Source: Proteiniphilum sp. X52 (lineage in GTDB: Bacteria > Bacteroidota > Bacteroidia > Bacteroidales > Dysgonomonadaceae). Taken from it: 64,000 nucleotides of DNA. Of this stretch, positions 8,656 to 51,316 are shown one piece after another. The stretch covers positions 124,001 to 188,000 of the forward strand of contig NZ_RDSD01000004.1 of assembly GCF_003712195.1 (NCBI RefSeq), read 5' to 3'. Position 1 is the stretch's first letter. Each line of letters opens with the position of its first letter. The notes under the pieces were generated by a model. It was not told the origin of the DNA. It searched no databases and was given only the letters and a program-made list of their open reading frames with translations. Both the position numbers and the translations under genes were made by a program.

Positions 8656-8677
8656 TTATATCAAAATAACATTCACT

Positions 8678-10261
8678 ATGAAATTTAAATATTATCCCTG
8701 CTTACTTTTAATATTTGTAATTTCCGCCTGCGACCACGGCACAGACCCGGAACCCGGACAGACGGGTACAAACGTGGAAAAGGCGGTTACGATTGATATC
8801 GGAAAAACGTTTCAGACGATAGACGGATTCGGTGCTTCGGACTGCTGGACGGCCAATTATGTTGGTAGAGACTGGGAAGGGAGCCAGAAGGAATCGATAG
8901 CCCGTTTGTTATTTTCACAGGATATCAATAATGGTGCCCCGGAAGGAATAGGCTTGTCGATGTGGCGTTTCAACCTGGGAGCAGGAACGGCAGAACAGGG
9001 TGATGATAGTGGTATCGACGACAAATCGCGCCGCGCGGAATCTTTCCTCAATGCCGACGGGACTTATGATTGGAGCCGTCAACGGGGGCAACAGTATTTT
9101 CTGGAAAAAGCGCGCGATTATGGCTGCGGGTCGTTCGTGATGTTCAGCAATTCGCCGCCGGTTCACTACACCTACAACGAAAAAGGATTTTCGGCACGCG
9201 GAGCACGGAGTAACCTGAAGGAGGAACACTACGGTGATTTTGCAGCTTACATGGCCAACGTGGCAGAATACTTCAAAAACAATAAAAATATTACATTCTC
9301 ATACATAAGTCCGGTGAACGAACCTCAATACAATTGGGAAGGCGGCCAGGAGGGAAGTGGCTGGCAAAATGCCGAAATAAAACGCCTGGTTATTGAACTG
9401 GATAACGCCCTCAGCCGGAAAAACCTGGATAGCAGGATCCTTATTACGGAATCAGGAGACTGGGAGTACCTTTATAAAATAAAGGGTGATGCTGCCCGCA
9501 GCGATCAAATAACCGAGTTTTTCTCGCCAGAGTCAGCCAATTATATCGGTGACCTCACGCATGTGGATATCCTGATAGGGGGACACAGTTACTGGACAGA
9601 CGGAAACTGGGATACGATGAAAAGTGTCAGAAGTCAACTGGGAGCAGCGGCGTCGGCAAAAGGATTAAAAATATACCAGACCGAATGGAGCATGCTTGGA
9701 GATCATTTCAACGACAAGGATTATCCCGGGCACGAGTCGGCGACTCCTCTTGACATAGCGCTTCACATGTCAAAAGTCATCTATCACGATTTAACCACCG
9801 CCAATGTCTGTTCATGGTCGTTCTGGACCAGTATGGACATGGCGCGCTGGGATCATAAGAACCGTTTTCTGCTGATCGACCTGGTTCCGGGAAGCGGTAT
9901 TTACGGTGATATTTCCGAAAGCGGCAGGCATGAGGCCACCAAAACTTTGTGGGTATTGGGAAATTACAGTCTGTTTATCAGGCCGGGCTACCAACGTGTC
10001 GATCTGAGCATAGAGAATCCCTCGAGCTCGTTTTTCGGATCCGCCTGGATCTCCCCCGACAAAAAACGGCTGGCGGTGGTATATACCAATATGACCGGAA
10101 AATCTATCGCCATTGATCTGAACGTTACGGGGCTGGGAAGGTACTCATCGGTGAAACAATATACTACATCCCGGACACAAGACCTGAGAGAAAATACTCC
10201 TTCCGGGGAGGAAACAGTGATTGACCCTTTGTCCGTTACCACATTCGTCTATGAATTTTAA
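8678..10261 (+). CDS. GH30-family glycoside hydrolase, lipoprotein (possible endo-beta-1,6-galactanase)
   Basis: The ATG at 8678 is chosen because it gives a clean lipoprotein signal (MKFKYYPCLLLIFVISACDHG); the longer frame begins at a TTG with no signal logic. The protein has 527 residues. Family GH30 signs are the early TIDGFGASDCWTANYVG (about 46-62), the SNSPPVHYTYNEKGFS strand, SYISPVNEPQYNW with the probable acid/base Glu215, and YQTEWSMLGD with the probable nucleophile Glu336. The C-terminus looks like the small beta-sandwich usual in the family. The overall pattern and the GH2 directly downstream (15-bp gap) suggest attack on beta-1,6-linked galactan such as arabinogalactan side chains, but the subfamily is inferred. 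Other GH30 activities (beta-1,6-glucanase, xylanase) cannot be excluded. A MITE-like element separates it from susD. Confidence 0.8.
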   Translation: MKFKYYPCLLLIFVISACDHGTDPEPGQTGTNVEKAVTIDIGKTFQTIDGFGASDCWTANYVGRDWEGSQKESIARLLFSQDINNGAPEGIGLSMWRFNLGAGTAEQGDDSGIDDKSRRAESFLNADGTYDWSRQRGQQYFLEKARDYGCGSFVMFSNSPPVHYTYNEKGFSARGARSNLKEEHYGDFAAYMANVAEYFKNNKNITFSYISPVNEPQYNWEGGQEGSGWQNAEIKRLVIELDNALSRKNLDSRILITESGDWEYLYKIKGDAARSDQITEFFSPESANYIGDLTHVDILIGGHSYWTDGNWDTMKSVRSQLGAAASAKGLKIYQTEWSMLGDHFNDKDYPGHESATPLDIALHMSKVIYHDLTTANVCSWSFWTSMDMARWDHKNRFLLIDLVPGSGIYGDISESGRHEATKTLWVLGNYSLFIRPGYQRVDLSIENPSSSFFGSAWISPDKKRLAVVYTNMTGKSIAIDLNVTGLGRYSSVKQYTTSRTQDLRENTPSGEETVIDPLSVTTFVYEF

Positions 10262-10276
10262 TTAATTAATCATCGC

Positions 10277-12772
10277 ATGCGAAAAAAAACTCTGTCAATC
10301 GTTATTTTACTGGTTATGTGCATTGCCCCATCTCTCCGGGCGCAGGTCTCTTTCGGGTCGCCTGAAAAAATCAATGACAACTGGAAATTTGTCCTGAACG
10401 ACGTGCGCGACGGACAATCGGTCACATTGGACGACACAAGGTGGCAACAGATATCGTTACCCCATGACTGGAGCGTAAAAGGGCAGTTAAGTCCCACACT
10501 TGCCAGTTGCACGGGATACCTTCCCGGAGGCATTGGATGGTACCGTAAAACAATCGATATTCCAGCCGACAAACAGGGACAGAAAGTATATCTCTATTTC
10601 GAAGGAGTGTATAACCGCAGCGAAGTATTCCTCAACGGGCAGCCTCTCGGCAAGCGCCCTAACGGGTATATCTCGTTCATGTATGATGCGACACCCTATA
10701 TTCAATACGGTCGGGAGAACGTAATCGCAGTACGGGTCGATCACAGCCGATATGCCGATTCGCGATGGTACACCGGTTCGGGGATTTACCGCGATGCGTG
10801 GGTGGTATATGCCAACCCCGTACATATTGCCCGATGGGGTGTATACGCCTATCCTGAACAAACAAAGAACGGCTATCAACTGAATGTGGAGGTCGAAATA
10901 AATAATGAAGAAGAGAGCAATGCCTCTTTAACAGTCGTGAATGAATTATACTCCGCGGAAGGAAAGCTTGTGACAAGGGACTCGAAGAAGTTCACGGCAA
11001 AGCCGGGCAATGAAAATAAACTGACCACTTCATTGAAGGTAAGCAAACCGGCGCTCTGGTCCCTGTCCGATCCTACTCTGTATGAGTTAAAGACGATCGT
11101 GCTGAAGGGTGGAGTTGAAACCGATCGGACCACAACCCGTACCGGATTCCGCACCTACACCTTCGATCCCAATAAAGGATTTGCTTTGAACGGGGAGTGG
11201 ACGAAAGTGAAAGGAGTATGCATACATCATGACGCGGGTGTACTGGGGGCGGCTGTTCCCCGGGAAGTATGGAAAAGACGTTTACAGACCCTGAAAGAGA
11301 TCGGCGTGAATGCAGTGCGAACGAGCCACAATCCGCAGGCCACCGATCTTTACGGTCTCTGTGATGAGATGGGCCTATTGGTACTTAATGAGATGTATGA
11401 CGAGTGGGTATTTCCCAAACGCAAATGGATGGAAGGTTGGAATGTGGGCACTCCCGGCTTTCAGGGTTCTTACGACATCTTCAAGGAATGGGGAGAGATC
11501 GATCTGGCCGACCTGGTGCGGCGCGACCGGAATCATATCTCTGTTTTTGCATGGAGCATCGGCAACGAGGTGGACTATCCCAACGATCCCTATTCGCATC
11601 CGGTGCTCGGGGGAGAGAAAGCAGGATTCACGCAGGCCTCTTATGGCGGTTATAATCCCGATGCGCCCGATGCAATGGAACTGGGTAATATCGCAAAGCG
11701 TCTCGCAGGAGTGGTAAAAGAATATGACCGGTCACGCCCGGTAACTGCGGGATTAGCCGGAGTGGCCATGTCGAACGAGACTGAATACCCGGGCGCATTG
11801 GACATCGCAGGATATAATTATACCGAAGACAAGTATGACAGTGATCATGAGAAATACCCTGACCGGGTGATCTATGGAAGCGAGAACCGGCACGATATGG
11901 CTGCATGGAAGGCTACGCGCGACAGGGAGCATATTTTCGGCCAGTTCCTCTGGACCGGGATCGATTATCTCGGGGAGTCGGGCAGATGGCCTTCAAGAGG
12001 TTTCTATTCCGGCTTGCTCGATTTCGGTGGATTCATCAAACCACGGGGATATTTCCGCCAGTCGTTATGGTCGGACAAGCCCATGGCCTACCTGGGAACA
12101 TATCCCACACCGGGCAGGGGCGGCAGTATCCAGTCGAAGGATGTATTGTCGCAGACGGAAACCGGGAATGTTTCGAACCATCAGGAAAGAGCACCCTCGA
12201 TGGATGCATGGTCCGTATGGAACTACCGGGAAGGCCAATTGATACGGGTGGTATGCTATACCAATGCCGCCAAGGCAAAGCTGTTGCTCAACGGCACAGA
12301 GGCGGGTGAGACAAAAGAGTATGACGACAATACCGGCATTATATTCTGGGATATTCCCTACAAGGCCGGAAAATTGGAAGTGGTGGGTATGGATAAGGAT
12401 AACAACCCTGTTGCCGGCTATGCCATACAATCATCGAAACGGCCCCATGCTTTACAGATCGTTCAGTGCGAAAAGCGGATAGATAAAGGGAGAGGGTTGG
12501 CCCAGATCGTGCTGCAGGTGGTGGATGAAGACGGCGTTCCGGTGATGCTCTCCGACGATGAGGTTACCTGCCGGATAAGCGGTCCCGCCAAACTTCTCGG
12601 TCTGGAAGCCAGCAACAATTCCGATATGGGCGACTATACCGACAACAGCCATCGCGTGTTCCACGGACGTATCCTGGCTTATGTGCAGGCAACCGGCGAG
12701 AAGGGCGAAATAAAGATAGGGTTTGCTTCTCCCTGGCTGGAACCGGCGGAAATAACAGTGACGGCTGAATAA
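10277..12772 (+). CDS. GH2-family glycoside hydrolase, probable exported beta-galactosidase
   Basis: This 831-residue protein has a signal peptide (MRKKTLSIVILLVMCIAPSLRAQ). The domain order is typical of GH2. An N-terminal sugar-binding jelly roll (about 30-180; ISLPHDWSVKG, GGIGWYRKTI, NRSEVFLNGQPLG) is followed by an Ig-like domain (about 185-290) and a TIM barrel (about 295-600) carrying VRTSHNPQATDLYGLCDEMG. The acid/base is Glu431 in WSIGNEVDY, and the probable nucleophile is Glu536 in YGSENRHD. Further beta domains follow, including a DUF4982-like region and a C-terminal Ig-like module. It lies 15 bp after the GH30 gene, so the two are co-transcribed; it would release terminal beta-galactose from GH30 products. 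GH2 also includes beta-mannosidases and glucuronidases, so the exact sugar is inferred. Confidence 0.85.
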   Translation: MRKKTLSIVILLVMCIAPSLRAQVSFGSPEKINDNWKFVLNDVRDGQSVTLDDTRWQQISLPHDWSVKGQLSPTLASCTGYLPGGIGWYRKTIDIPADKQGQKVYLYFEGVYNRSEVFLNGQPLGKRPNGYISFMYDATPYIQYGRENVIAVRVDHSRYADSRWYTGSGIYRDAWVVYANPVHIARWGVYAYPEQTKNGYQLNVEVEINNEEESNASLTVVNELYSAEGKLVTRDSKKFTAKPGNENKLTTSLKVSKPALWSLSDPTLYELKTIVLKGGVETDRTTTRTGFRTYTFDPNKGFALNGEWTKVKGVCIHHDAGVLGAAVPREVWKRRLQTLKEIGVNAVRTSHNPQATDLYGLCDEMGLLVLNEMYDEWVFPKRKWMEGWNVGTPGFQGSYDIFKEWGEIDLADLVRRDRNHISVFAWSIGNEVDYPNDPYSHPVLGGEKAGFTQASYGGYNPDAPDAMELGNIAKRLAGVVKEYDRSRPVTAGLAGVAMSNETEYPGALDIAGYNYTEDKYDSDHEKYPDRVIYGSENRHDMAAWKATRDREHIFGQFLWTGIDYLGESGRWPSRGFYSGLLDFGGFIKPRGYFRQSLWSDKPMAYLGTYPTPGRGGSIQSKDVLSQTETGNVSNHQERAPSMDAWSVWNYREGQLIRVVCYTNAAKAKLLLNGTEAGETKEYDDNTGIIFWDIPYKAGKLEVVGMDKDNNPVAGYAIQSSKRPHALQIVQCEKRIDKGRGLAQIVLQVVDEDGVPVMLSDDEVTCRISGPAKLLGLEASNNSDMGDYTDNSHRVFHGRILAYVQATGEKGEIKIGFASPWLEPAEITVTAE

Positions 12773-12773
12773 T

Positions 12774-13634
12774 TCATGCCTGCATCCTTTTCTTATATTT
12801 ACCCGGACTTTCTCCCGTGAGTTTTATAAAAAGCCGGTTGAAATAAGAAATATTTTCGAAACCTAAGCCATACGCGACATCCTTGATATGGACATTATCG
12901 ACTAACAGTCGCAGTTGGGCGTATTCAATCTTCTTTTGATTGATATATTTGCCTGGGGTACAGTTCATCTCTTTTTTGAAGAGGCGGATGAAATGATCTT
13001 TGGTCAAGAAACACATATCGGCCAAATGATTGATGTCGATCATGCTGTCAATATTTTTATGAATGTGGCGGAGAGACATAAGTATCCGCTCTTCAATATG
13101 CTCATTTTTATGAACCGCCTGCGCTAAAAAACGAGATATAATTTGTTTAATTATCGCCTGTGTCTCCATTTCAAAGGCAATGGGACTTTGCTTTTGGAGA
13201 ATCATATTTTGCTCAATATTCGCCGAATTATCATAAAGGTATGGATCGTAATACTTTAATTCTCTACCCGGATTTATTTTTATCAGACGTTCAATCAATT
13301 GTATATCCAGAGGATCCGATTTGATTTCTACCGGAAAATCAAGCAAATCAAATATACTCAGGTTCTTTCCCGGATTTTCATATATATGGATATAATAAAG
13401 TTCCAAAATACCGTCGCTTTCATAGGCATGCCTTGTAAAGGAAGGAGTCATATATAAATGATCTTTTTTCAGTTCGAAGACGCCATCTTCCCTGATGATC
13501 TTTGCCGTGCCGTTTTTCACATAATGTATCCGGGTGAAAGGGCTATCGACATTCTTCCAGTTCCAGTCAGCATTATGATAGGCATAGCCCACATTCAATA
13601 AAATGAAATCTCTTCTTAATCCTTCTTTATTCAT
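12774..13634 (-). CDS. AraC-family transcriptional regulator with cupin sensor domain
   Basis: The ATG at 13634 (286 residues, MNKEGLRRDFILLNVGYAYHN) is preferred; the longer frame adds 30 residues that overlap the operator-like repeats upstream. The N-terminal half is a cupin-like ligand-binding fold (about 10-110; HYVKNGTAKIIREDGVFEL, DHLYMTPSFTRHAYESDG). The C-terminal 100 residues are two helix-turn-helix motifs of AraC type, with IDINHLADMCFLTKDHFIRLFKKEMNCTPG split between them and ending in YFNRLFIKLTGESPGKYKK. It converges on the GH2 gene with one base between the two stop codons and diverges from susC at 14020. It therefore probably senses a sugar and controls the fucosidase operon, the GH30-GH2 pair, or both. 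A direct repeat of ATATCGATAA precedes it. Confidence 0.9.
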   Translation of the reverse strand: MNKEGLRRDFILLNVGYAYHNADWNWKNVDSPFTRIHYVKNGTAKIIREDGVFELKKDHLYMTPSFTRHAYESDGILELYYIHIYENPGKNLSIFDLLDFPVEIKSDPLDIQLIERLIKINPGRELKYYDPYLYDNSANIEQNMILQKQSPIAFEMETQAIIKQIISRFLAQAVHKNEHIEERILMSLRHIHKNIDSMIDINHLADMCFLTKDHFIRLFKKEMNCTPGKYINQKKIEYAQLRLLVDNVHIKDVAYGLGFENISYFNRLFIKLTGESPGKYKKRMQA

Positions 13635-13668
13635 TCTCACCGCTATTTGGGCTGTAAATATAGCAATA

Positions 13669-13699
13669 ATATCGATAAAGTGCAATTTTATATCGATAA
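13669..13699. promoter_or_regulatory. Direct repeat ATATCGATAA x2, 21-bp period, likely AraC-type operator
   Basis: Identical 10-mers sit at 13669-13678 and 13690-13699. AraC-family proteins, with two HTH motifs per monomer, usually bind tandem sites about 21 bp apart. The pair ends 35 bp upstream of the araC-like start codon, so autoregulation is plausible. The divergent susC starts 320 bp away on the other side. Confidence 0.5.
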
Positions 13700-13806
13700 C
13701 ATATAAAAAATGAGATGCTAACAATCTCTAATTTTGCACAGTGAGAATTTTACTGGTGAAAAGGAGAATTCCGTGCATGAAGACAAAGCAATTTATTGAA
13801 AAACAA

Positions 13807-14019: not shown

Positions 14020-16998
14020 ATGTGCAAGACACATTTAGTCTGTTTTTTCATCTTTTTGATGAGCGGCATTTCGGTTTTTGCTCAAAGGAGCATAACCGGG
14101 AAAGTGGTTGATGTCAATGGGGAATCGCTGATTGGTGTCAACGTTGAAGTAAAAGGCAGTTCCGTTGGTACTGTCACTGACATAGAAGGTAATTACCGGA
14201 TTACGGCCGATGCCGGCAATACCTTAATATTTACCTATGTGGGTTTTATAAGTGAAGAGGTGGATGTGGCTGGCCAAGATGTCATCAACATTACGATGAA
14301 GGAGGATCATAAAATGTTGGATGAGATTGTGGTTGTGGGTTACGGCAGCATGACTCGCAAGGATGTCACCAGTTCTATTACCACCGTGAAAGCCGACAAA
14401 CTGAATACCGGTGTGTATACCGACCCCGGGCAGTTGTTGCAAGGCAAGGTTCCCGGGTTAACAATTGTTCAGAGCAGCGATCCTACTTATGGAACAACTT
14501 CCATCTCTCTCCGGGGGGCCTCTTCTCTGCGTACAGGCAAAGCTATGGAACCTTATTATGTTGTTGACGGTATTCCTGACGTGTCTTTGAACCTTATAGC
14601 TCCGGAGGACATTGAATCAATTGATGTACTTCGCGACGCCTCTGCAACGGCTATTTACGGTTCTAAGGCGGCCAATGGCGTGATTGTCATCACCACAAAA
14701 AAAGGTAGCAAAACAGATCGTTCATCTGTCTCATATAGTGGTTATGTCGGATTTGACAACATAGCCAAACGCCTGGATATGATGTCGGCCAGCGATTTGC
14801 GGTCTTATGCGTCCGCCAATAACATAACACTTCCCAATGATAAGGGCTACAATACCAATTGGAATGATGAAGTGCTTCGCACGGCAGTCAGCCAAAGCCA
14901 CAATGTTTCTATTAACGGAGGGAGCGAACGTTCCAGCTACAATGCCAGCTTGAATTATCTGAATAAAGAAGGTATTGTGCTCGGTACTGAATTTGAACGT
15001 ATTTCAGGTCGAGCTTATGCCCAGACAAAATCTTTGAACGATCGTTTGACTTTGGATTTAAATGTCAATACCGCACAAACCAAAGGCAAATCCGTTTCAT
15101 CAAGTAAGGACGGCCAAAGTGTGTTTGATGCCATGAACTATTATTCACCCTTGCTCCCCACAAAAAATGAAGACGGTTCGTGGTATAATTACACATCAGT
15201 AAACCAATATCATAACCCGCTGTCCATGATTTATGAGGACAATTATGAAACCATCAAGAAAGTACTTCAGGGAACGGGTAAGGCTTCTCTGCAAATCAAC
15301 AAGGATTTATTGTGGAACCTAAACCTTTCCTATGAAAACGAACAAATCAATTACAACAACTACAACAGCACTGCCTCCCAGATAGTTACCGCGAACGGGC
15401 AGGCTTTTCGCGGAACGCTTGAAAATAAGAAAAAAGTGTTGGAAACCTATTTCAATTACGATCATACATTCGCCAATGCTCATAAATTGGGTCTGATGGG
15501 CGGTTATTCTTACGAGCAAACCGACAATAACGATGGCTATGGCCTTACCGTTTATGATTTCTATAGCGATGCCACTTCTTATTATAATCTTGGGTTTGCC
15601 AATAAAATGGATATGAGCGGCATAACGGCCTATGCACTGGAAACGCTCCGTATGATTTCTTTCTATGGCCGTTTAAACTATTCATACAATAGTAAATACA
15701 TGCTCCAGGCCACTGTCCGTCGCGACGGCTCATCGGCTTTCGGTAAAAATAATCGTTGGGGAACATTCCCTTCCGCATCTCTTGCATGGCGCGCAAGCGA
15801 AGAGAAATTCGTCAATGATTGGAATGTGTTTGATGATTTGAAGTTACGGGTAAGTTATGGCGTAAGCGGCAACTCTTTGGGATTCGGAGCATACCAGGCC
15901 ATTCAGACCTATGGCCCTTCGGGATGGTTTACCTATACTGACTCTCAGGGAAATTCCAGCCTTTATCGCACGATAGCCGCCCAGTCAAATGCAAATCCCG
16001 ATTTGAAATGGGAAAGAACGGCCATGCTGAATGCGGGCATTGATTTTTTATTTCTCAAAGGACGTCTGGGAGGCACCATTGAATACTATGACAAAAAGAC
16101 AAGCGATCTGATTTATTCATACAATGTATCGACAAACCGCTATCCTTATGGTTCGATGTATGCCAATGTGGGTGATATCACCAACAAGGGAATTGAGTTT
16201 ACAATCAATGCAACGCCTGTCCAACTGAAAGACTTCACTTGGGATACGAGCCTGAACCTTTCACACAATAAAAATAACGTGAAAAGCATTTCCAACAGCA
16301 AGTATTCTGTAGATTATATCTCAACGGGCAATCCGGAGATCGCCGGTTATTCCACCGCAAATATTGGACGTATCATGGAAGGCCATCCGCTCGGGACTTT
16401 CTACACATTTGAATGGGCTGGTTATAATGACGACGGCATATCAGTATTCTACAAACGTGACGCGGAAACAGGCGAGCGTACCGGTGAGACTACAACGGAC
16501 CCCGTTGACTCGGACCGCACCATTACAGGCTGTGCGCAGCCCAAGTTGAGTTTGGGTTGGACAAACGACTTCAAATATAAGAATTGGAGTTTGAATATGT
16601 TCTTTACCGGAGTTTTTGGCCATAAGATTTATAATGCAACTCGCGAACAATACAGTAATGTCGCTTTCGTCACCGAAGGCCGAAATGTGTTGAAATCGGT
16701 GGCTACAGAACAAAAACCAACCGATGTCCAGTCACAGGCTCCTTCCGATCGTTGGTTGGAAAATGGAGATTATTTCCGCTTGTCGACTCTTTCTTTAGGT
16801 TATTCATTTGGAAAGTTGGGTAATTGGGTTAACTCACTCAAAGTATATGGAACCTGCAATAACTTGTTTACAATTACCGGATATTCCGGCCGTGATCCTG
16901 AAATTAATCTTGGTGGCTTGGAACCGGGAATTGACAGGCGTACTAATTATTATCCTCGTACTCGCACATTTATGTTTGGTGTAAATGTGAATTTCTAA
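14020..16998 (+). CDS. SusC/RagA-type TonB-dependent outer-membrane transporter (fucose-cassette operon)
   Basis: This 992-residue protein has a signal peptide (MCKTHLVCFFIFLMSGISVFAQ) and a carboxypeptidase-D regulatory-like domain (about 23-100; ITGKVVDVNGESLIGVNV, VGTVTDIEGNYRI). The plug begins at LDEIVVVGYGSMTRKDVTS and carries MEPYYVVDGIPD and VLRDASATAIYGSKAANGVI. The barrel closes with RTRTFMFGVNVNF. It leads an operon that runs through SusD, four sugar-oxidation enzymes and an alpha-L-fucosidase, so its cargo is probably a fucosylated oligosaccharide. It is preceded by a divergent AraC regulator, not an HTCS. Confidence 0.95.
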   Translation: MCKTHLVCFFIFLMSGISVFAQRSITGKVVDVNGESLIGVNVEVKGSSVGTVTDIEGNYRITADAGNTLIFTYVGFISEEVDVAGQDVINITMKEDHKMLDEIVVVGYGSMTRKDVTSSITTVKADKLNTGVYTDPGQLLQGKVPGLTIVQSSDPTYGTTSISLRGASSLRTGKAMEPYYVVDGIPDVSLNLIAPEDIESIDVLRDASATAIYGSKAANGVIVITTKKGSKTDRSSVSYSGYVGFDNIAKRLDMMSASDLRSYASANNITLPNDKGYNTNWNDEVLRTAVSQSHNVSINGGSERSSYNASLNYLNKEGIVLGTEFERISGRAYAQTKSLNDRLTLDLNVNTAQTKGKSVSSSKDGQSVFDAMNYYSPLLPTKNEDGSWYNYTSVNQYHNPLSMIYEDNYETIKKVLQGTGKASLQINKDLLWNLNLSYENEQINYNNYNSTASQIVTANGQAFRGTLENKKKVLETYFNYDHTFANAHKLGLMGGYSYEQTDNNDGYGLTVYDFYSDATSYYNLGFANKMDMSGITAYALETLRMISFYGRLNYSYNSKYMLQATVRRDGSSAFGKNNRWGTFPSASLAWRASEEKFVNDWNVFDDLKLRVSYGVSGNSLGFGAYQAIQTYGPSGWFTYTDSQGNSSLYRTIAAQSNANPDLKWERTAMLNAGIDFLFLKGRLGGTIEYYDKKTSDLIYSYNVSTNRYPYGSMYANVGDITNKGIEFTINATPVQLKDFTWDTSLNLSHNKNNVKSISNSKYSVDYISTGNPEIAGYSTANIGRIMEGHPLGTFYTFEWAGYNDDGISVFYKRDAETGERTGETTTDPVDSDRTITGCAQPKLSLGWTNDFKYKNWSLNMFFTGVFGHKIYNATREQYSNVAFVTEGRNVLKSVATEQKPTDVQSQAPSDRWLENGDYFRLSTLSLGYSFGKLGNWVNSLKVYGTCNNLFTITGYSGRDPEINLGGLEPGIDRRTNYYPRTRTFMFGVNVNF

Positions 16999-17020: not shown

Positions 17021-18652
17021 ATGAAGAGCTATATCAAAAACACCTTACTTGCAGGTTTGCTGTTATCATCAGCCATGGCCTGTACCGATTTGGATGTAGA
17101 TATCAAATCCACCTACACTTCCTATCCGAATTCCGACATTGCCACCGAAGCGAAAATGGCAGATTTATACTATGGATTCCGTGGCGCTTTGGGGCGCCGT
17201 TACACGGAAGCCGCGTGGTTGTCTTCCGATGAATTCGCGGCGGTCACTTATGGTGGCAACTGGTATGACGGGGGCAATTATGTCCACGCAACGCTCCACA
17301 TGACTAACCCGGATGACGCGCATATCGATTGGCTTGGCGATATCACAGGAGTCATCACCAAGTGTAATCAGGCTATTGTGGATCTCGGAGGCGACGAGGC
17401 AAGCGATGAGTCTATCGCTCAAGCCTTGGCAATGCGCGCTTTTTATCATTTCATTTTTATGGATATGTTTGGCGATGCTCCTATCTTGGACCATGTCGTT
17501 GGAAGTGATGAGGCGATCGAACGTTCTCCGCGTGCCAAGGTGGCAGCCTTTATAGAGGAGGATCTGCTTCGCGCCATCCGTTCCGGCGGCTTGTCCGAAA
17601 ATGTGGATGCTTCCACGTATGGAAAACCCACGAAATGGATGGCTGAGGCTCTCCTTGTTAAACTCTATCTAAATTGGGCTGTTTACTCTTGCGCTGATGT
17701 CGCCGACTATGAACCCACTTTGACAAACTCCAGACTTAATGATGCCGTGAGTTACTGTGATGATATAATTAACAGTGGCAAGTTTGATCTGAGCGACAGT
17801 TATCGTAAAAAATTCATGCCCGATAACGGTTATCATATTAAAGATTTCATCTACGCGATGCCTTATGATAATGCCACGGCACAAGGCATGACATACGCCC
17901 GATTCCAATTGTGGCCCAAATTCAATAATGACGGAGCGAATGGCGCCGGGTTATTCGGGATAACCCTTTCAAGGAATGCCGGTGGTATTTTCACAGTCAC
18001 ACCTGAAGCGGCCGATCGTTTCTCTCTGGCAGGAGACGAACGCAATGATATTATCTTAAAAGATGCGCTATTCACCTATAATATTTCCTCCTTTGACAAA
18101 ACCACAACGCCTTACATGTATAACGGACAGCGTGTGACGCTTAAGAAAAATATTACTTTACTCATACCCGGCGATGCTTCTATGAATGTGGGCGATGATT
18201 TTAACGGTTGGAATCAAGGTTACCGCTGTATCAAGTGGGGTATCCAGGTGGCTGATTATGAAACCTATAACCGCAACCAAAGTAACGATGTGCCTGTTCT
18301 TCGTTATGCGGATATTCTGCTGATGAAGGCGGAAGCTATTCTTCGTGGCGCCACAGCAACCAATAGCGATACTCCCATGAGCTTATTCAATCAGGTTCGC
18401 AGTTATGTAAAAGCTCCTACAATAACCACACCTCCCACTCTACAAGATATTCTTGACGAACGTGGGCGTGAGTTTTTCAGTGAGATGTGGCGCCGCAACG
18501 ACTTGATTCGTTTTGGCCAGTTCGAGAATGACTGGGGGTTAAAACATGTGATAAATCCAGCCGCCAAAACTCAGAAATGGCGGCGCATCTTCCCGATTCC
18601 CACAGGTGTTATGAACTCAAATACCAATTGGGCACAAAACCCGGGTTATTAA
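17021..18652 (+). CDS. SusD/RagB-type glycan-binding lipoprotein
   Basis: The 543-residue partner of the SusC that ends 22 bp upstream. The lipoprotein signal is MKSYIKNTLLAGLLLSSAMAC. SusD hallmarks are AMRAFYHFIFMDMFGDAPILD (about 139-159), VLRYADILLMKAEAILRGA, the conserved DERGREFFSEMWRRNDLIRFG helix near residue 480, and the C-terminal RIFPIPTGVMNSNTNWAQNPGY. Its ligand is inferred from operon context (fucosidase and fucose-type oxidation enzymes). Confidence 0.95.
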   Translation: MKSYIKNTLLAGLLLSSAMACTDLDVDIKSTYTSYPNSDIATEAKMADLYYGFRGALGRRYTEAAWLSSDEFAAVTYGGNWYDGGNYVHATLHMTNPDDAHIDWLGDITGVITKCNQAIVDLGGDEASDESIAQALAMRAFYHFIFMDMFGDAPILDHVVGSDEAIERSPRAKVAAFIEEDLLRAIRSGGLSENVDASTYGKPTKWMAEALLVKLYLNWAVYSCADVADYEPTLTNSRLNDAVSYCDDIINSGKFDLSDSYRKKFMPDNGYHIKDFIYAMPYDNATAQGMTYARFQLWPKFNNDGANGAGLFGITLSRNAGGIFTVTPEAADRFSLAGDERNDIILKDALFTYNISSFDKTTTPYMYNGQRVTLKKNITLLIPGDASMNVGDDFNGWNQGYRCIKWGIQVADYETYNRNQSNDVPVLRYADILLMKAEAILRGATATNSDTPMSLFNQVRSYVKAPTITTPPTLQDILDERGREFFSEMWRRNDLIRFGQFENDWGLKHVINPAAKTQKWRRIFPIPTGVMNSNTNWAQNPGY

Positions 18653-18681: not shown

Positions 18682-19614
18682 GTGGAATACAGGGAAATTG
18701 GGAAAACCGGCATGAAAGTCTCGAATCTCAGCTTCGGGGCTTCCTCCCTTGGGGGTGTTTTTCATCCGATCAGGGAAGAAGAGGGCATTCAGGCCGTTTA
18801 TGCGGCCATCGAGAATGGCATCAATCTCATCGATGTCTCCCCCTACTACGGGTATCTCAAAGCCGAAATCGTCTTGGGCAAGGCATTAAAAAACATCAAC
18901 CGCGGTAAGTATTATCTTTCCACTAAGGTAGGGCGTTACGGCAAGGATGGCATCAAGATTTGGGATTATTCCGCGAGAAGAGCGAAAGAAAGTGTTTATG
19001 AAAGTTTGGAACGTCTGCATGTCGACTATATCGACTTAATCAATGTGCATGATATTGAATTTGCCGATTTGGAACAGATTTGTGATGAAACACTTCCACT
19101 TTTGGCAGATCTCAGGAACGAAGGGGTGGTAAGACACGTGGGCATAACCAATCTGAATCTGCGTCATTTTAAATATGTAATTGACCATGTACCCCGGGGA
19201 ACCGTTGAGTCTGTTTTATCTTTTTGCCATTACACGCTCAACGACGACTCTTTGGCCGATTATTTCAATTATTTCGAATCAAACCAGATAGGCATTATCA
19301 ATGCCTCGCCCTACGCCATGGGATTATTGACCCAACGGGGCGTGCCCGATTGGCATCCCGCTCCGGAATCGTTGAAACGGCTTGCAAAAAAGGTAATCGG
19401 TTTTTGCGAGATGAAAGGCGTCCCGATTGAACAACTGGCTGTAAGCTTCTCTGTGTCCAATCCCCGTATTTCCACCACATTGTTCAGTACAGCCAACCCT
19501 GAAAATGTGTTGAAAACTATCCGGTATGCGAATACCCCTTTAGACATGGAATTGTTGAAAGAAGTGCAAACGATGTTCGAGCCCGGGTTTCGGGACACAT
19601 GGGTTAATGACTGA
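18682..19614 (+). CDS. Aldo/keto reductase, probable L-fucose (or L-galactose) 1-dehydrogenase
   Basis: This 310-residue protein starts at GTG 18682; the N-terminus EYREIGKTGMKVSNLSFG is the usual start of this fold. Catalytic tetrad candidates are Asp51 and Tyr56 (NLIDVSPYYG), Lys82 (LSTKVGR) and His123 (INVHDIEF). The family includes D-threo-aldose/L-fucose 1-dehydrogenases and L-galactose dehydrogenases, which oxidise the sugar at C1 to an aldonolactone with NAD(P). It is 29 bp after susD and overlaps the next gene by 8 bp. A lactonase-type amidohydrolase, a mutarotase and an alpha-L-fucosidase follow, fitting L-fucose to L-fuconolactone. L-galactose is an equally valid substrate chemically. 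Confidence 0.75.
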   Translation: MEYREIGKTGMKVSNLSFGASSLGGVFHPIREEEGIQAVYAAIENGINLIDVSPYYGYLKAEIVLGKALKNINRGKYYLSTKVGRYGKDGIKIWDYSARRAKESVYESLERLHVDYIDLINVHDIEFADLEQICDETLPLLADLRNEGVVRHVGITNLNLRHFKYVIDHVPRGTVESVLSFCHYTLNDDSLADYFNYFESNQIGIINASPYAMGLLTQRGVPDWHPAPESLKRLAKKVIGFCEMKGVPIEQLAVSFSVSNPRISTTLFSTANPENVLKTIRYANTPLDMELLKEVQTMFEPGFRDTWVND

Positions 19615-20635
19615 AAAAATGAAAGCGATACAAATAACGGATCAAGGGAAAACGCGCGTTGTTGAAACACCCAAACCGGAGCTTATTCCCGGCCACGTAT
19701 TGTTGAAAACAGGCTACGTGGGATTTTGCGGTTCCGATCTCAACACTTTCAGAGGATTGAACCCTTTGGTAAAACTTCCGGTTGTACCAGGGCATGAAAT
19801 CGGTGCCCGGATAGAAGAAGTGGCGCATGACGTTCCTCCTTTTTTCAAACCGGGCTTGAACGCCACAGTCAATCCTTATTCCAGTTGTGGACATTGTCCG
19901 GCTTGTGAAAACGGGCGCCCCAACGCATGTGAATTTAATCAAACATTAGGCGTTCAACGCAATGGCGCCATGGCAGAATATATTCTTGTCCCGTGGGAAA
20001 AAGTAATGGCAGACCCGGCGATTTCTGTCCGCGATTTTGCATTGGTGGAACCGATGAGCGTAGGCTTCCATGCGGTAAATCGCGCGCAAGTAACCGACAT
20101 AGACACCGTTATGGTGATTGGCTGCGGTATGATTGGCATGGGAGCCATCGCGCGGGCGGCCCTCCGGGGAGCAAAAGTCATCGCCGTGGACGTTGATAAC
20201 AAAAAACTGAGACTGGCCAAACGCCTGGGCGCACAATACACTATTCATTCAGTGGATGAAAACTTGCATGAGCGTGCTCAGGAAATAACACGACAACGGG
20301 GCGCGGATGTGATTATAGAAGCAGTAGGCCGTCCCGAGACTTATATCGCCTCCATTTCGGAAGTGGCTTATACCGGCAGGGTGGTTTATATCGGATATGC
20401 GAAAGAAAGGATACCTTTCGACACGCAATACTTTGTCAAAAAGGAAGTAAATATAAAAGGGTCGCGAAATGCCACGCCGGCCGACTTCAAGGCGGTCATG
20501 GAATACATGAAAAAGGGTGGTTTGCCGGTGGAAGAATTGATCACGGCGGTCCATCCCCCTGAAGAGGCGCAGACTGCGTTAGAAAAATGGTCCGCTCATC
20601 CAAGTGAAGTTTTCCGGATATTAATTCGTTTTTAA
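19607..20635 (+). CDS. Zinc-dependent medium-chain alcohol dehydrogenase, L-galactonate-dehydrogenase-like
   Basis: A 342-residue MDR enzyme. Catalytic zinc ligands are visible at Cys41 (VGFCGSD) and His63-Glu64 (VPGHEIG). The structural zinc loop uses Cys94, Cys97, Cys100 and Cys108 (CGHCPACENGRPNAC). The Rossmann motif is VIGCGMIGMGAIARAA. The segment KKEVNIKGSRNATPADF resembles, from memory, the GSRNATPEDF segment of the E. coli L-galactonate 5-dehydrogenase (LgoD/YjjN). L-fuconate is 6-deoxy-L-galactonate, so a role in oxidising the aldonate made by the neighbours is attractive; this is inference. Alternatives are a sorbitol- or threonine-dehydrogenase-like activity, or oxidation of 2-keto-3-deoxy-L-fuconate. 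It overlaps the aldo/keto reductase by 8 bp and ends one base before the amidohydrolase gene. Confidence 0.75.
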   Translation: MTEKMKAIQITDQGKTRVVETPKPELIPGHVLLKTGYVGFCGSDLNTFRGLNPLVKLPVVPGHEIGARIEEVAHDVPPFFKPGLNATVNPYSSCGHCPACENGRPNACEFNQTLGVQRNGAMAEYILVPWEKVMADPAISVRDFALVEPMSVGFHAVNRAQVTDIDTVMVIGCGMIGMGAIARAALRGAKVIAVDVDNKKLRLAKRLGAQYTIHSVDENLHERAQEITRQRGADVIIEAVGRPETYIASISEVAYTGRVVYIGYAKERIPFDTQYFVKKEVNIKGSRNATPADFKAVMEYMKKGGLPVEELITAVHPPEEAQTALEKWSAHPSEVFRILIRF

Positions 20636-20636
20636 A

Positions 20637-21560
20637 ATGTTCCCGATCATCGATGCCCACGCACATCTCTGGCTGTATCAGGATACCGTGGTGGAAGGTA
20701 AGAAGATAAGGACTCTCGAGAATGGCAAATCCGAGTTTATGGGAGAAATACGGCAGATGCTTCCCCCTTTTATGATAGAAGGGCGAAATACCGCTGAGAT
20801 TTTACTCTCAAACATGGATTACGCGCAAGTGTCGGCGGCAGTCATTACACAGGAGTATATCGACGGATTACAAAACGACTACCTCCTGGAAGTGCAGCAG
20901 AAATATCCGGAACGTTTCTTTTGTTGTGGAATGGTGGATGCCCGCAAACCGGGTTTCTACGCACATGCCGAAAAATTGATCAACCAAGAAGTTTTCAAAG
21001 CATTGAAAGTACCTGCCCAACGATTGATCAGCACGGGCAAGAGGGTTTGGCTTACCTCTGATGAAATGATGAAAATGTTTCGTCTGATGGAAAGAAAAGA
21101 TCTCATCCTTTCGATTGACCTGGCTGACGGTGCCACACAGGTAGCCGAGATGCGGGAAGTGATCAAAGAATGTCCATCCCTTCGAATAGCGATCGGCCAT
21201 TTTGGAATGGTTACCCGCAAAGATTGGCAGGAACAGATCAAACTGGCGCGGCATAAAAATGTGATGATTGAATCCGGGGGAATCACCTGGCTCTTTCATG
21301 ATGAGTTTTACCCTTTCAGGGGTGCAATTCGGGCAATAAGGGAAGCCATTGAGTTGGTCGGGATAGACAAATTAATGTGGGGTTCCGATTATCCGCGCAC
21401 CATTGTAGCAATTACCTATCGGATGTCTTATGACTTTATCGTCAGATCCAATTTATTGACGGAAGAAGAAAAAGCCCTGTTTTTAGGCAAAAACGCCGTC
21501 CGGTTTTACGGCTTTAAACGGTGGGTGCAGCTTCCTTACATTAAAAACATGTCGGAGTAA
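20637..21560 (+). CDS. Amidohydrolase-superfamily protein, probable L-fuconolactonase type
   Basis: This 307-residue cytoplasmic protein has no signal peptide. It shows the amidohydrolase-2 TIM-barrel pattern: DAHAHLWL at residues 6-13 with the metal-type His8 and His10, AIGHFGM in the middle, and MWGSDYPRT late with the conserved Asp. The COG3618-like branch contains L-fucono-, L-rhamnono- and L-galactono-lactonases, which hydrolyse the 1,4- or 1,5-lactone to the acid. Its position directly after two dehydrogenases (one-base gap) makes lactone hydrolysis the likely step. Some relatives are decarboxylases, so the reaction is not proven. Confidence 0.7.
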   Translation: MFPIIDAHAHLWLYQDTVVEGKKIRTLENGKSEFMGEIRQMLPPFMIEGRNTAEILLSNMDYAQVSAAVITQEYIDGLQNDYLLEVQQKYPERFFCCGMVDARKPGFYAHAEKLINQEVFKALKVPAQRLISTGKRVWLTSDEMMKMFRLMERKDLILSIDLADGATQVAEMREVIKECPSLRIAIGHFGMVTRKDWQEQIKLARHKNVMIESGGITWLFHDEFYPFRGAIRAIREAIELVGIDKLMWGSDYPRTIVAITYRMSYDFIVRSNLLTEEEKALFLGKNAVRFYGFKRWVQLPYIKNMSE

Positions 21561-21647
21561 TAATCCAAACGAATAGGAAAAATTCAACAGGAAATTCATA
21601 AACCCAGCATGACATCGGATCGTGTTGTAAATCAAGATTAATCAAAT

Positions 21648-22034
21648 ATGGAAAAGGCGAAAGGATATACACAGAAAAATCATACCATTCCAACAAAACG
21701 TTATTGCCAAACATTAGAATTAAAGGACAATCCGGAACTTATAAGGGAATATATCCTACTGCACAGCGAGGCGTACCATTGGCCGGAAATCAGAGAGGGA
21801 ATCCGTTCGGTGGGTATCTTGGAAATGGAGATATACTTTTATAATACCACTCTTTTTATGATTGTGGAAACACCCCTGGATTTTGATTGGGAAGTTGCTT
21901 TTACCAAATTGGCCGAACTTCCCCGCCAAGCCGAATGGGAAAAATACATGTCTGGTTTTCAAGAAACATCATGTGACGATGATCTGTCGAAAAAATGGAA
22001 GAAAATGGAACGATTATTTCATTTATATGAATAA
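21648..22034 (+). CDS. Rhamnose/fucose mutarotase-family protein, probable L-fucose mutarotase
   Basis: This 128-residue protein resembles the L-rhamnose mutarotase family (PF05336). It has the pattern YCQTLELKDNPELIREYILLHSEAY..WPEI, in which His39 aligns with the catalytic His of RhaM (RHDEIWPEL). It interconverts alpha and beta pyranose forms so that the 1-dehydrogenase receives its preferred anomer. Members of this family specific for L-fucose are known. The gene lies between the lactonase and the alpha-L-fucosidase genes, supporting L-fucose. The gap before it (87 bp) holds nothing recognisable. It differs clearly from the rhaM-type gene at 52396 in this window. Confidence 0.7.
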   Translation: MEKAKGYTQKNHTIPTKRYCQTLELKDNPELIREYILLHSEAYHWPEIREGIRSVGILEMEIYFYNTTLFMIVETPLDFDWEVAFTKLAELPRQAEWEKYMSGFQETSCDDDLSKKWKKMERLFHLYE

Positions 22035-22069
22035 GGTAGAATGCATACATAATTAAAAATTTGATCCTC

Positions 22070-23617
22070 ATGAAAAAAAGAATATCAGTAACTATGATAG
22101 GTTTGCTTTTACTCCTGTCATGCCAGTCAACAAAAAAAGATTTTTACAACATCGATTCTGTTGCCTCTCCTAAAGGTACGGACCTATTTCAGCCAAATTG
22201 GGATAATATTGCCGAATATTATCAATTCCCGGAATGGTACGTAGATGCAAAATTCGGCATATTCATCCACTGGGGAGTTTTCACGGTTCCGGCGTTTGAT
22301 AATGAATGGTATTCACGCAACATGTACCAGAAAGACCATAAAGTTTACAAGCATCATATTGAAACATGGGGGCCGCACGACAAATTCGGTTATAAAGACT
22401 TCATACCTCTCTTTAAAGCTGAACAATTTAATGCACAGCAATGGGCCGAATTATTCAAAAAATCAGGCGCGAAATATGTTGTCCCCGTAGCAGAACATCA
22501 TGACGGGTTCTCGATGTATAACAGCAGCCTGAATGAATGGAATGCTGTGAAAATGGGCCCTAAAAAGGATGTCATCGGACTCCTGAAAAATGCGGTAGAG
22601 AAAGAAGGGCTTATCTTTGGCTTATCCTCGCATAGAGCCGAAAACGCATGGTTTTTTAATGGAGGAATGGAATTCGCTTCCGATGTGCAAGATATGGACA
22701 TTTCCCTCTATGGGAGGCGTTACGATGACCAGTCATATACGGAAGATTTTGCACGCGAATGGTTAACGCATGCTTATGAATTAGTCAACAAATATGAACC
22801 TAAATTATTCTATTTTGATTGGACGGTAAACAATCCCGTTTTGATGCCTTATTTTAATAAGTTCATGGCATATTATTACAACAATGCCATAGATTGGGGG
22901 CAAGGTGTTGTTGTAAATACCAAACAAGGATATCCTACCAATATACATGTGTGGGATGTTGAACGGGGGAAATCCGGTAAAATGATGCTATTTCCCTGGC
23001 AAACCGACACCTCCATTGGTAAAAGATCATGGTCACATATTGAAGGCGAAGAATACAAAACTCCTCAACAAATAGTGCATGATTTGGTGGATATCGTTAG
23101 TAAAAACGGAAACCTGTTACTCAATATAGGCCCCCGGGCTGACGGGATCATCCCTGATGAGCAGAAAAACATATTACTTTCCATTGGAGAATGGCTTAAA
23201 GTAAATGGCGAAGCTATTTACGGTACACGTCCATGGAAGAAATTCGGCGAGGGAGAGACAGAACCGGCCAAAGGCTCTTTTTCCGACAATGAGGCAACTC
23301 CTTATACGGCACGTGACATTCGTTTCACAACCAAAGGCAATGTTTTCTATGCTGTTGTACTGGATTGGGACGATGAGGGGGTACTTATCAAATCATTAAA
23401 CCAAGAAACTATGGGAGATGCTGTAATTGTAGATATCAACCTGCTGGGTTCAGACGAAAGGATCAATTGGGAAACAACAGACATGGGGCTAAAGATATCT
23501 TTTCCTGAAAATAAACCTTGTAAATACGCTTATTCATTTAAAATCACTTTTGACAAAAAAGTGGGAGAACATTTGGAGTCAGAGGCTGTAAATGAAGTAA
23601 TGAAGCACGGCGCATAA
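22070..23617 (+). CDS. GH29 alpha-L-fucosidase, lipoprotein
   Basis: The ATG at 22070 (515 residues) is chosen; the longer frame begins at TTG three codons earlier. The lipoprotein signal is MKKRISVTMIGLLLLLSC. GH29 hallmarks are PEWYVDAKFGIFIHWG (about 56-71), VVPVAEHHDGFSMY, FGLSSHRAENAW and KLFYFDWTVNNP with the likely nucleophile Asp250. DIVSKNGNLLLNIGPRADG and VNGEAIYGTRPWK then lead to a C-terminal beta-domain. It removes terminal alpha-L-fucose from imported or surface-bound glycan and closes the operon that encodes L-fucose oxidation. The family can also act on alpha-L-galactosides, which matters for pathway interpretation. Confidence 0.9.
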   Translation: MKKRISVTMIGLLLLLSCQSTKKDFYNIDSVASPKGTDLFQPNWDNIAEYYQFPEWYVDAKFGIFIHWGVFTVPAFDNEWYSRNMYQKDHKVYKHHIETWGPHDKFGYKDFIPLFKAEQFNAQQWAELFKKSGAKYVVPVAEHHDGFSMYNSSLNEWNAVKMGPKKDVIGLLKNAVEKEGLIFGLSSHRAENAWFFNGGMEFASDVQDMDISLYGRRYDDQSYTEDFAREWLTHAYELVNKYEPKLFYFDWTVNNPVLMPYFNKFMAYYYNNAIDWGQGVVVNTKQGYPTNIHVWDVERGKSGKMMLFPWQTDTSIGKRSWSHIEGEEYKTPQQIVHDLVDIVSKNGNLLLNIGPRADGIIPDEQKNILLSIGEWLKVNGEAIYGTRPWKKFGEGETEPAKGSFSDNEATPYTARDIRFTTKGNVFYAVVLDWDDEGVLIKSLNQETMGDAVIVDINLLGSDERINWETTDMGLKISFPENKPCKYAYSFKITFDKKVGEHLESEAVNEVMKHGA

Positions 23618-23695: not shown

Positions 23696-23703
23696 TATCT
23701 AAT

Positions 23704-23739
23704 CCCGGTAATTGAACAATAAATTGCCGGGATTTTTTT
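23704..23739 (+). terminator. Rho-independent terminator after the fucosidase operon
   Basis: The stem CCCGGTAATT / AATTGCCGGG (10 bp, one T-G wobble) with an 8-base loop is followed by A then seven T. It ends transcription of the 14020-23617 operon. It ends three bases before the operator of the next operon. Confidence 0.85.
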
Positions 23740-32453: not shown

Positions 32454-34091
32454 ATGAAAGCTATTAAGAGTTTATTTATTATTGTTTTATCTGCGGTTCT
32501 TTTCATCTCTTGTAAAGTGTCACCACACGAGTCAATGATGGAGGGGAAGTATGAACCTACTTGGGAATCACTCTCCCAATACGGAGAAGCTCCGGAATGG
32601 TTCCAGGATGCGAAGTTCGGTATTTGGGCACATTGGGGCCCGCAATGTCAGCCGGAACAAGGTGATTGGTATGCGCGTGGGATGTATGACGAAGGGGGAG
32701 ACCAATATGGCTGGCATGTTCAAAATTACGGCCACCCGTCCGAGTTTGGATTTAAAGATGTGATTAATCTCTGGAAAGCGGAAGAGTGGAATCCTGATCA
32801 GTTAATGGCATTATACAAAAAAGCAGGAGCCAAATACTTTTTCACCTTAGGCAATCATCACGATAATTTTGATTTGTGGGATAGCAAGCATCAACCTTGG
32901 AATTCCGTAAACATGGGACCGAAGAAAGATATCGTCGCGGGTTGGGAAAAAGCAGCTCGTGCAAACGATTTATATTTTGGCGTCAGCATACATTCGGCTC
33001 ATGCCTGGACTTGGTATGAAACAGCTCAAAGATCAGATAAAGAGGGTCCCAAGGCAGGAATTCCTTATGATGGAAAAATGACGAAAGAAGATGGAAAAGG
33101 AAAATGGTGGGAAGGGTATAACCCTCAGGATTTATACGTTCAAGATCACCCATTAAGCAAGAATAGTGAAGACACTCACATGATTCATAGTCAGTGGGGA
33201 TGGGGAAATGGAGCCTCTATCCCCTCGCAGGAATATTCTCAAAACTTCTTTGACCGGAATGTTGATATGATCAATAAGTACAATCCAGATTTGGTATACT
33301 ATGATGACACGAGTATGCCTCTTTGGCCTTTTAGTGATCAGGGGTTACGTGCTGTGGCCCATTTCTATAACAAGAGCTTGAGAGAAAACAATGGGAAAAA
33401 CGAGGCAGTGGTTTTCGCTAAAATTTTAACCGATGAACAAAAAGAGTGTTTAGTGTGGGATGTGGAAAAAGGCACTCCTGACCAAAAGCAGGATAAACCA
33501 TGGCAAACATGCACTTGCCTGGGGCATTGGCATTATGATGAAAGTGTTTACAACAATGATTGGTATAAACCGGCCAAGACTGTCGTGCACATGTTAATCG
33601 ATATTATCAGTAAAAATGGTAATATGTTGTTAAGTGTGCCAATGAAGGGTAATGGAACCATAGACGATAAGGAACAGAAGATATTGGAAGATATGGCATC
33701 CTGGATGGAAGTGAATGAAGAAGCCGTATTCGGAACCAGGGTGTGGAAGATATTTGGTGAAGGACCTGTAGCCGAAGCCTCCAACCCCCTCCATGCGCAA
33801 GGATTCAACGAAGGACGACATGCCCCCTATACTTCGGAAGATATCCGTTTTGTAACAAAACGGAATATTTTATATGCCCATGTATTGGCCTGGCCGGAGA
33901 GTGATAAAGTGACAATAAAATCATTGGCTAGGGGCAGTTCTTTGCTGGAAGGGTCAATCAAAAAAATCTCGATGCTGGGGAGTAATGAAGAAATATCATT
34001 CACTGAAACTTCGGATGGATTAGTGGTTGATCTGCCTAAAGGTGTAAAACCAAATGAAATTTCATTTGCCTTGAAAATTAATTGTGACTAA
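32454..34091 (+). CDS. GH29 alpha-L-fucosidase, lipoprotein (second copy type)
   Basis: This 545-residue protein has a lipoprotein signal (MKAIKSLFIIVLSAVLFISC). GH29 signs are PEWFQDAKFGIWAHWGP, YFFTLGNHHDNFDLWD, FGVSIHSAHAWTWYE and LVYYDDTSMPLWP with the probable nucleophile Asp284. DIISKNGNMLLSVPMKGNG and VNEEAVFGTRVWK follow, then a C-terminal beta-domain. It shares the fold but differs widely from the fucosidase at 22070, so it is not a recent duplicate; insertions around residues 190-245 are specific to it. It stands alone between a TonB-receptor relic and a decayed transposase fragment, with no SusC/D of its own. It might serve the fucose operon, or remove fucose from rhamnogalacturonan-linked glycans. 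Confidence 0.88.
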   Translation: MKAIKSLFIIVLSAVLFISCKVSPHESMMEGKYEPTWESLSQYGEAPEWFQDAKFGIWAHWGPQCQPEQGDWYARGMYDEGGDQYGWHVQNYGHPSEFGFKDVINLWKAEEWNPDQLMALYKKAGAKYFFTLGNHHDNFDLWDSKHQPWNSVNMGPKKDIVAGWEKAARANDLYFGVSIHSAHAWTWYETAQRSDKEGPKAGIPYDGKMTKEDGKGKWWEGYNPQDLYVQDHPLSKNSEDTHMIHSQWGWGNGASIPSQEYSQNFFDRNVDMINKYNPDLVYYDDTSMPLWPFSDQGLRAVAHFYNKSLRENNGKNEAVVFAKILTDEQKECLVWDVEKGTPDQKQDKPWQTCTCLGHWHYDESVYNNDWYKPAKTVVHMLIDIISKNGNMLLSVPMKGNGTIDDKEQKILEDMASWMEVNEEAVFGTRVWKIFGEGPVAEASNPLHAQGFNEGRHAPYTSEDIRFVTKRNILYAHVLAWPESDKVTIKSLARGSSLLEGSIKKISMLGSNEEISFTETSDGLVVDLPKGVKPNEISFALKINCD

Positions 34092-49053: not shown

Positions 49054-49169
49054 AGTAATCAGGTAATCGTACAAAGGGTTATCCAGAGAACAGGATCGCA
49101 TTCTTCGTTATCGCATAAAAATAATGTGAAGTAATGTATAGTCACACTTACCTGCAAAATTCCATAAGA

Positions 49170-51312: not shown

Positions 51313-51316
51313 TCGT

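Follow-up and report, generated by a model that had tools for sequence, protein, structure and literature searches.

Oxidation of L-galactose to D-tagaturonate is already known in Bacteroidales. The text available from PMC12632266, with reference to Hobbs et al. 2014 (Biochemistry 53:4661, doi 10.1021/bi500656m), reports two dehydrogenases in Phocaeicola vulgatus, BVU_0219 for L-galactose and BVU_0222 for L-galactonate, and gives D-tagaturonate as an intermediate of the pathway. The same text describes the lguABCDEF cluster of Luteolibacter sp. LG18, in which the L-galactose dehydrogenase LguA clusters with BVU_0219 and the Arabidopsis enzyme, is inactive on L-fucose and D-arabinose, and has a kcat/Km 40-fold higher on L-galactose than on L-glucose. 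LguD, an L-galactonate 5-dehydrogenase yielding D-tagaturonate, is described there as distant from BVU_0222. On the glycosidase side, BpGH29 (7SNK and 7LJJ) is presented as an exo-α-L-galactosidase of the P. plebeius porphyran polysaccharide utilization locus (PUL) (PMC12316285). Here we analyse a 64,000-nucleotide stretch of Proteiniphilum sp. X52 (the window), in which a SusC/SusD operon encodes an aldo/keto reductase (AKR), a zinc alcohol dehydrogenase (ADH), an amidohydrolase, a PF05336 mutarotase and a family 29 glycoside hydrolase (GH29). From these sequences the operon very probably serves to harvest L-galactose and to oxidize it by the known pathway, embedded in a PUL. By joining that pathway to a BpGH29-clade GH29 and a mutarotase within a SusC/SusD operon, the arrangement departs modestly from what is known, and no published description of it was found in the open-licence literature searched.

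Structure and recurrence of the operon

The source genome comprises 4.43 Mb and is 99.97% complete, and the window covers contig positions 124001-188000. Seven genes follow one another on the + strand, beginning with a SusC-like TonB-dependent transporter (14020..16998; Plug and TonB_dep_Rec barrel) and a SusD-like glycan-binding protein (17021..18652; SusD_RagB and SusD-like_3), all above cut-off. The five cassette genes are the AKR (18682..19614, GTG start; Aldo_ket_red, 150.7 bits), the zinc ADH (19607..20635; ADH_zinc_N, 100.7 bits, and ADH_N, 83.5 bits), the amidohydrolase, a lactonase candidate (20637..21560; Amidohydro_2, PF04909, 135 bits), the PF05336 mutarotase (21648..22034; rhaM, 90.9 bits) and the GH29 (22070..23617; Alpha_L_fucos, 336.5 bits, and Fucosidase_C, 47.6 bits), every score lying above the Pfam cut-off. 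The GH29 likely starts at ATG 22070 (the open reading frame (ORF) listing begins at TTG 22061), and its N-terminus reads as a lipoprotein-like signal. Spacing is tight: 29 bases separate SusD from the AKR, the AKR and ADH overlap by 8 bases, and gaps of 1, 87 and 35 bases precede the amidohydrolase, the mutarotase and the GH29 ATG. A preliminary description of this DNA had placed these five genes in one operon after SusC/SusD, with the ends found here. The conserved operon is confirmed, with all five genes present in that order on one strand, and a non-phosphorylating oxidative branch of 1-dehydrogenase, lactonase and mutarotase is indeed joined to the uptake genes, as it had proposed.

The amidohydrolase was used to scan a collection of genome contigs, which gave 131 relatives, from which 80 loci were kept (L numbers below), including one from the same species (L004, Proteiniphilum acetatigenes DSM 18083; lactonase match 100%). 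By tblastn, the AKR recurs in 69-70 of these loci depending on threshold and the ADH in 71; 68 of the 80 have both dehydrogenases close to the lactonase, so the grouping does not arise by chance. We rely on tblastn counts where possible, as ORF picking took the longest frames first and missed or mis-started some genes; some of the absences reflect short contigs. Other members are less constant. Mutarotase relatives of at least 45% identity occur in 17/80 loci, GH29 genes of any clade in 20/80 (at least 60% identical in 10/80), LacI regulators in 19/80 and FucP-type permeases in 25/80, a permease representative scoring 335.9 bits against the fucP model (cut-off 280.4).

Comparison with the described systems

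The gene order AKR-lactonase-major facilitator superfamily (MFS) permease-ADH is exact in 14 loci and would fit the numbering BVU_0219 to BVU_0222, BVU_0220 presumably being the lactonase. The Phocaeicola loci L064 and L082 have this order, with a mutarotase gene ahead of it in L082. The P. plebeius locus L082 is 61, 69 and 60% identical to the window AKR, lactonase and ADH, and the 80 loci hold no P. vulgatus record. The likeness to the P. vulgatus pathway, a contiguous AKR, amidohydrolase and zinc ADH, is thus drawn from the published description available to us rather than from sequence. By comparison, the window set belongs to a SusC/SusD operon that also encodes a GH29 and a mutarotase, follows the order AKR-ADH-lactonase and includes no permease gene.

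With lguABCDEF the window set would share an L-galactose dehydrogenase followed by an L-galactonate 5-dehydrogenase leading to D-tagaturonate. That cluster differs in carrying altronate route genes and in also using L-glucose, and its available description names neither SusC/SusD nor a glycosidase (PMC12632266). BpGH29 is the closest solved relative of the operon GH29 and falls in the same clade. According to the available account, however, it adjoins a sulfatase and porphyranases (PMC12316285), whereas the operon GH29 adjoins the predicted genes for L-galactose oxidation. Among the scanned window genes (about 39-55 kb lay outside the scan), none belongs to a sulfatase or agarase family.

Two further loci bear on the mutarotase. 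L006 is a window-like operon in which AKR-ADH-lactonase is followed by permease, mutarotase and GH29, and L126 reads LacI-type regulator (label from sequence), AKR, mutarotase, ADH, lactonase and permease. The position of the mutarotase within both sets supports it as a cassette member, and we consider it likely that the PF05336 protein acts on L-galactose anomers. As sequenced, the L126 FucP-type permease frame (10376-11617) has a single internal stop at codon 236. A protein of about 550 residues also recurs near the cassette (L005, L008, L034, L040 and L044); for the L044 member, CARDB is the sole Pfam match, and the protein may be an undescribed glycan-active one.

Predicted oxidation of L-galactose

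For the AKR, each of the top five PDB matches bears the name L-galactose dehydrogenase (E at most 5.4e-79; the next match is at 9e-26), and the identity to solved enzymes of that name is 60.5% (7lh6), 51.2% (9w6y) and 47.0% (8scc). Residues D51, Y56, K82 and H123, which we take to be the AKR catalytic tetrad, are kept in 67/67 aligned relatives. The protein is predicted to be an L-galactose 1-dehydrogenase resembling BVU_0219. L-galactose, which the preliminary description had given as the alternative to L-fucose, is supported by these AKR relatives, by the BpGH29 clade and by the fit to the published pathway.

The remaining two enzymes are also conserved at residues of active-site type. In the zinc ADH, C41, H63, E64, C94, C97, C100 and C108 are kept in 67/67 aligned relatives and E148 in 66/67; we presume functional roles for C41, H63, E64, the four further cysteines and E148. 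In the amidohydrolase, H8, H10, H188 and D251, presumably the expected metal-binding positions, are kept in 75/75. Gene context suggests that the ADH is a BVU_0222-like L-galactonate 5-dehydrogenase yielding D-tagaturonate and that the amidohydrolase is an L-galactono-lactonase. Oxidation at C5 gives D-tagaturonate only where C6 bears a hydroxyl group, which is true of L-galactose and not of the 6-deoxy sugar L-fucose, so an ADH of this kind fits the former. UxaB-like (tagaturonate reductase-like) and UxaA-like (altronate dehydratase-like) genes lie directly 3' of the ADH in L033 (Mannitol_dh and GD_AH domains) and L082, and with one ORF between in L073, which ties the ADH product to D-tagaturonate. 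A clustered relative in L050 scores 575.5 bits against the tagaturonate reductase model (cut-off 359); the UxaA-like protein of L073 scores 331.6 bits against the galactarate dehydratase model, below its cut-off of 730.85. The order of genes had been proposed to give sugar release, anomer equilibration, lactone formation and lactone hydrolysis; the oxidative branch of that scheme stands, but it gave the zinc ADH no step, and this enzyme is best placed as the L-galactonate 5-dehydrogenase.

Departing from the P. vulgatus pathway, the window genome gave no match when searched with PF04295 (UxaA), so the probable outlet for D-tagaturonate is by way of UxaE and UxuA. UxaE (177 bits), named tagaturonate 3-epimerase in the accessible part of PMC6978723, is encoded next to UxaC (665.9 bits) in a run of genes that also includes a D-mannonate oxidoreductase (364.9 bits, cut-off 281) and a sugar kinase scoring under the cut-offs; a separate contig carries UxuA. 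Judged by these genes, the sink would run from tagaturonate through fructuronate and mannonate to 2-keto-3-deoxygluconate. A UxaB/UxaA drain in this genome was ruled out on the missing PF04295 match and on the sole PF01232 match, which reads as mannitol-1-phosphate dehydrogenase-like (396 residues, 3' of ORFs read as PfkB-like and D-lyxose-isomerase-like).

In the proposed mechanism, SusC/SusD would import an oligosaccharide capped with α-L-galactose, and the GH29 would free the terminal sugar. A permease encoded elsewhere, for which the contig C10 FucP of the same genome is a possible candidate, would move L-galactose to the cytoplasm, where the mutarotase may equilibrate its anomers. The AKR would then form the lactone, the amidohydrolase would open it, and the zinc ADH would oxidize L-galactonate at C5 to D-tagaturonate, which UxaE, a short-chain dehydrogenase/reductase-type D-mannonate oxidoreductase and UxuA would convert to 2-keto-3-deoxygluconate. 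The reactions, the substrate, the compartments and the permease in this scheme are predictions from sequence.

The GH29 glycosidase

The operon GH29 matches the chains 7snk, 7ljj and 7lnp at 616-630 bits, while the next chains reach at most 286 bits. In a tree of 33 rows (5 from PDB, several with long branches), it clusters with BpGH29 together with 10 rows from lactonase loci (support 99/97), apart from the solved fucosidases. The rows were drawn from lactonase loci, with only the GH29 of the fucI locus described below and PDB chains from outside, and are not an independent sample; the 11 clade rows represent 10 genomes, with the window genome counted once. The clade rows share GLS[ST]HR-x-EN-x-WF, [YW]FDW[TS]V and ERGK with BpGH29, and the fucI-locus GH29 lacks these motifs. 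On this basis the operon GH29 is fairly likely to be an exo-α-L-galactosidase.

The window holds a second GH29 (32454-34091) of a separate clade, whose nearest solved chain is also 7snk (280 bits). It is preceded by its own SusC/SusD pair and a BT_3987-like protein and followed by a hybrid two-component regulator.

L-fucose and the separate fucose locus

The preliminary description put L-fucose first as the substrate and remarked that Bacteroides generally process it by isomerase, kinase and aldolase. The general remark agrees with the fucRIAKUP operon of B. thetaiotaomicron, as reported in the text available from PMC3878776. No fucI, fucK or fucA occurs in the window operon, as it had stated, but two fucI genes are present elsewhere in the genome. 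One belongs to a fucose locus on contig C10 (L090, 5796-17305) with a GntR-type regulator, fucI, fucP (620.6 bits, cut-off 280.4), a SusC-like gene, a SusD labelled by position, further genes and a GH29 that, among solved proteins, best matches α-L-fucosidases. A complete fucI-fucK-fucA set elsewhere had been named as evidence against the fucose proposal. The outcome is partial: fucI and fucP are clear, but a fuculokinase was not pinned down. Two of six FGGY kinase matches were scanned and neither exceeded the fuculokinase cut-off, one being a rhamnulokinase-like protein just short of the rhamnulokinase cut-off. Class II aldolase domains occur in three ORFs of the genome, of which two were scanned, neither above cut-off.

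We also surveyed 295 genomes of the window's order (G numbers below). fucI is present in 10 of the 16 lactonase-positive genomes and in 61 of the 279 lactonase-negative ones (odds ratio 6; Fisher p 8.5e-4 without correction for relatedness). The lactonase thus goes with fucI, and the cassette does not replace it. On this opposite association we rejected a role of the branch as a substitute for the isomerase route, with the reservation that related genomes are not independent; the fucose locus elsewhere in the same genome speaks against such a role as well.

Weighing the alternatives

If the cassette were a non-phosphorylating L-fucose pathway, the AKR would make L-fuconolactone, the amidohydrolase would make L-fuconate, and later steps would be encoded elsewhere. 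Such a reading draws on GH29 being mainly a fucosidase family, on a FucP-type common partner permease, on the difference between the two sugars at C6 only, and on L-fucono-1,5-lactonase as the sole NCBIfam match of the amidohydrolase; that match, however, scores 37.3 bits where the model cut-off is 400. The window operon holds no fuconate dehydratase or later enzyme, and neither was recognised among the recurrent neighbour clusters listed or scanned, a search that took in no singletons and no other part of the genome. One of these listings gave 45 clusters of same-strand ORFs of more than 300 residues within 7 kb, from 76 of the 80 loci. The separate fucI/fucP/GH29 locus, the co-occurrence of lactonase and fucI, and the inactivity of LguA on L-fucose, as given in the available text of PMC12632266, also count against it, and we regard this pathway as quite improbable. 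L-fucose as the main substrate was accordingly set aside, on the AKR match to L-galactose dehydrogenases, the nearness of the GH29 to an exo-α-L-galactosidase, the chemistry of the zinc ADH and the separate fucose locus. An L-glucose or D-arabinose oxidation module is more improbable still: Luteolibacter LguA does use L-glucose besides L-galactose, but its 40-fold preference for L-galactose and its inactivity on D-arabinose (PMC12632266, available text) speak against such a module, as does the BpGH29-clade hydrolase in the operon.

Several observations weigh against L-galactose harvest and oxidation as the function of the operon. Neither the zinc ADH nor the amidohydrolase has any NCBIfam model above cut-off, and the operon lacks a permease gene. 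According to the available part of PMC11189522, the GH29 sequence cluster of BpGH29 is not isofunctional, and its fucosidases free fucose from xyloglucan. In the genome survey, GH29 was detected in 19 genomes (E at most 1e-100) and the lactonase in 16 (1e-60). A GH29 of at least 69% identity is present in four genomes (the window genome G000, G205, G270 and G025), of which two have the lactonase. The two genes are adjacent in G205. G025 has no cassette gene within about 8 kb of its close GH29 and no lactonase at 1e-60; G270 has no lactonase at 1e-60 and no cassette genes in the 10.9 kb 5' of the GH29, its contig stopping 160 bases past that gene. In G154 (78% complete) a permease, a mutarotase and a GH29 of 50% identity are grouped, without lactonase, and L014 has GH29 and lactonase with neither AKR nor ADH. 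These patterns indicate that a GH29 of this kind can be present where the cassette is absent. Close GH29s without the lactonase would suit two sugars from one glycan, with the GH29 freeing L-fucose for fucI elsewhere and the oxidation genes serving L-galactose, an arrangement also in keeping with the xyloglucan fucosidases and with a genome that carries genes for both. The motifs shared by the 11 clade rows and absent from the fucI-locus GH29 argue the other way, with the reservation that these rows were recruited from lactonase loci, and we consider the two-sugar arrangement unlikely.

Regulation, second copy and neighbouring loci

Divergent from the SusC/SusD operon, on the - strand, lies an AraC-family gene (12774..13724; HTH_18 and HTH_AraC above Pfam cut-off), the probable local regulator. 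Its relatives occur in 12/80 lactonase loci by clustering and 10/80 by tblastn at 45% identity, with the same species in both counts. On the + strand 3' of the GH29, a terminator-like hairpin and T run (23701..23734; 13-pair stem, consensus match only) has the longest stem of the 14 terminator-like sites in the window, where shuffles expect 10.8; the next long + strand ORF begins at 24138.

A second AKR-ADH-lactonase set lies elsewhere in the same genome (L104, 7450-10442, contig C14), with 70, 61 and 73% identity to the window genes. Its neighbours are GH106, a SASA esterase, a DUF5703 protein, GH2 and a hybrid two-component regulator, and this 19 kb stretch yielded neither a GH29 nor a mutarotase relative. 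The pectic polysaccharide rhamnogalacturonan II (RG-II) contains L-galactose, and a pectin side chain of that kind would be in keeping with such neighbours. Elsewhere, some cassettes have GH43 and GH3 genes close by (L056 and L069), others GH28 and GH95 genes (L075), and a GH95 α-L-galactosidase is reported to free L-galactose from corn xylan (PMC4491172, available text). Such neighbours fit plant L-galactose, and prove nothing for the window operon.

The window also carries a pectin-type stretch (49134-62886; GH106, GH2, GDSL and GH28, with genes up to 55 kb outside the Pfam scan), and a second PF05336 protein is encoded at 52396-52710. At 8630-12772, a GH30 (PF14587) and a GH2 with DUF4982 follow another SusC/SusD pair; this DUF4982-GH2 cluster is found in 5/80 lactonase loci, the same species included.

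Implications

L-galactose is rare, occurring in some xylans, in RG-II and in red-algal galactans. Tentatively, and with slightly more doubt than confidence, we suggest that the operon is a self-contained L-galactose PUL of a non-marine Bacteroidales, combining SusC/SusD, a BpGH29-clade GH29, a mutarotase and the complete oxidation set with a UxaE drain in place of altronate. If this is true, part of PF05336 would be an L-galactose mutarotase group and the target glycan a terrestrial α-L-galactoside. The assignment to L-galactose would correct a tempting misreading, in which GH29, PF05336 and a lactonase are together taken as fucose catabolism, and the gene set could serve as a genomic marker for L-galactose-bearing glycans. 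It also predicts a role for PF05336 mutarotases in L-galactose use and would connect L-galactose oxidation with the branch of hexuronate catabolism that runs through UxaE.

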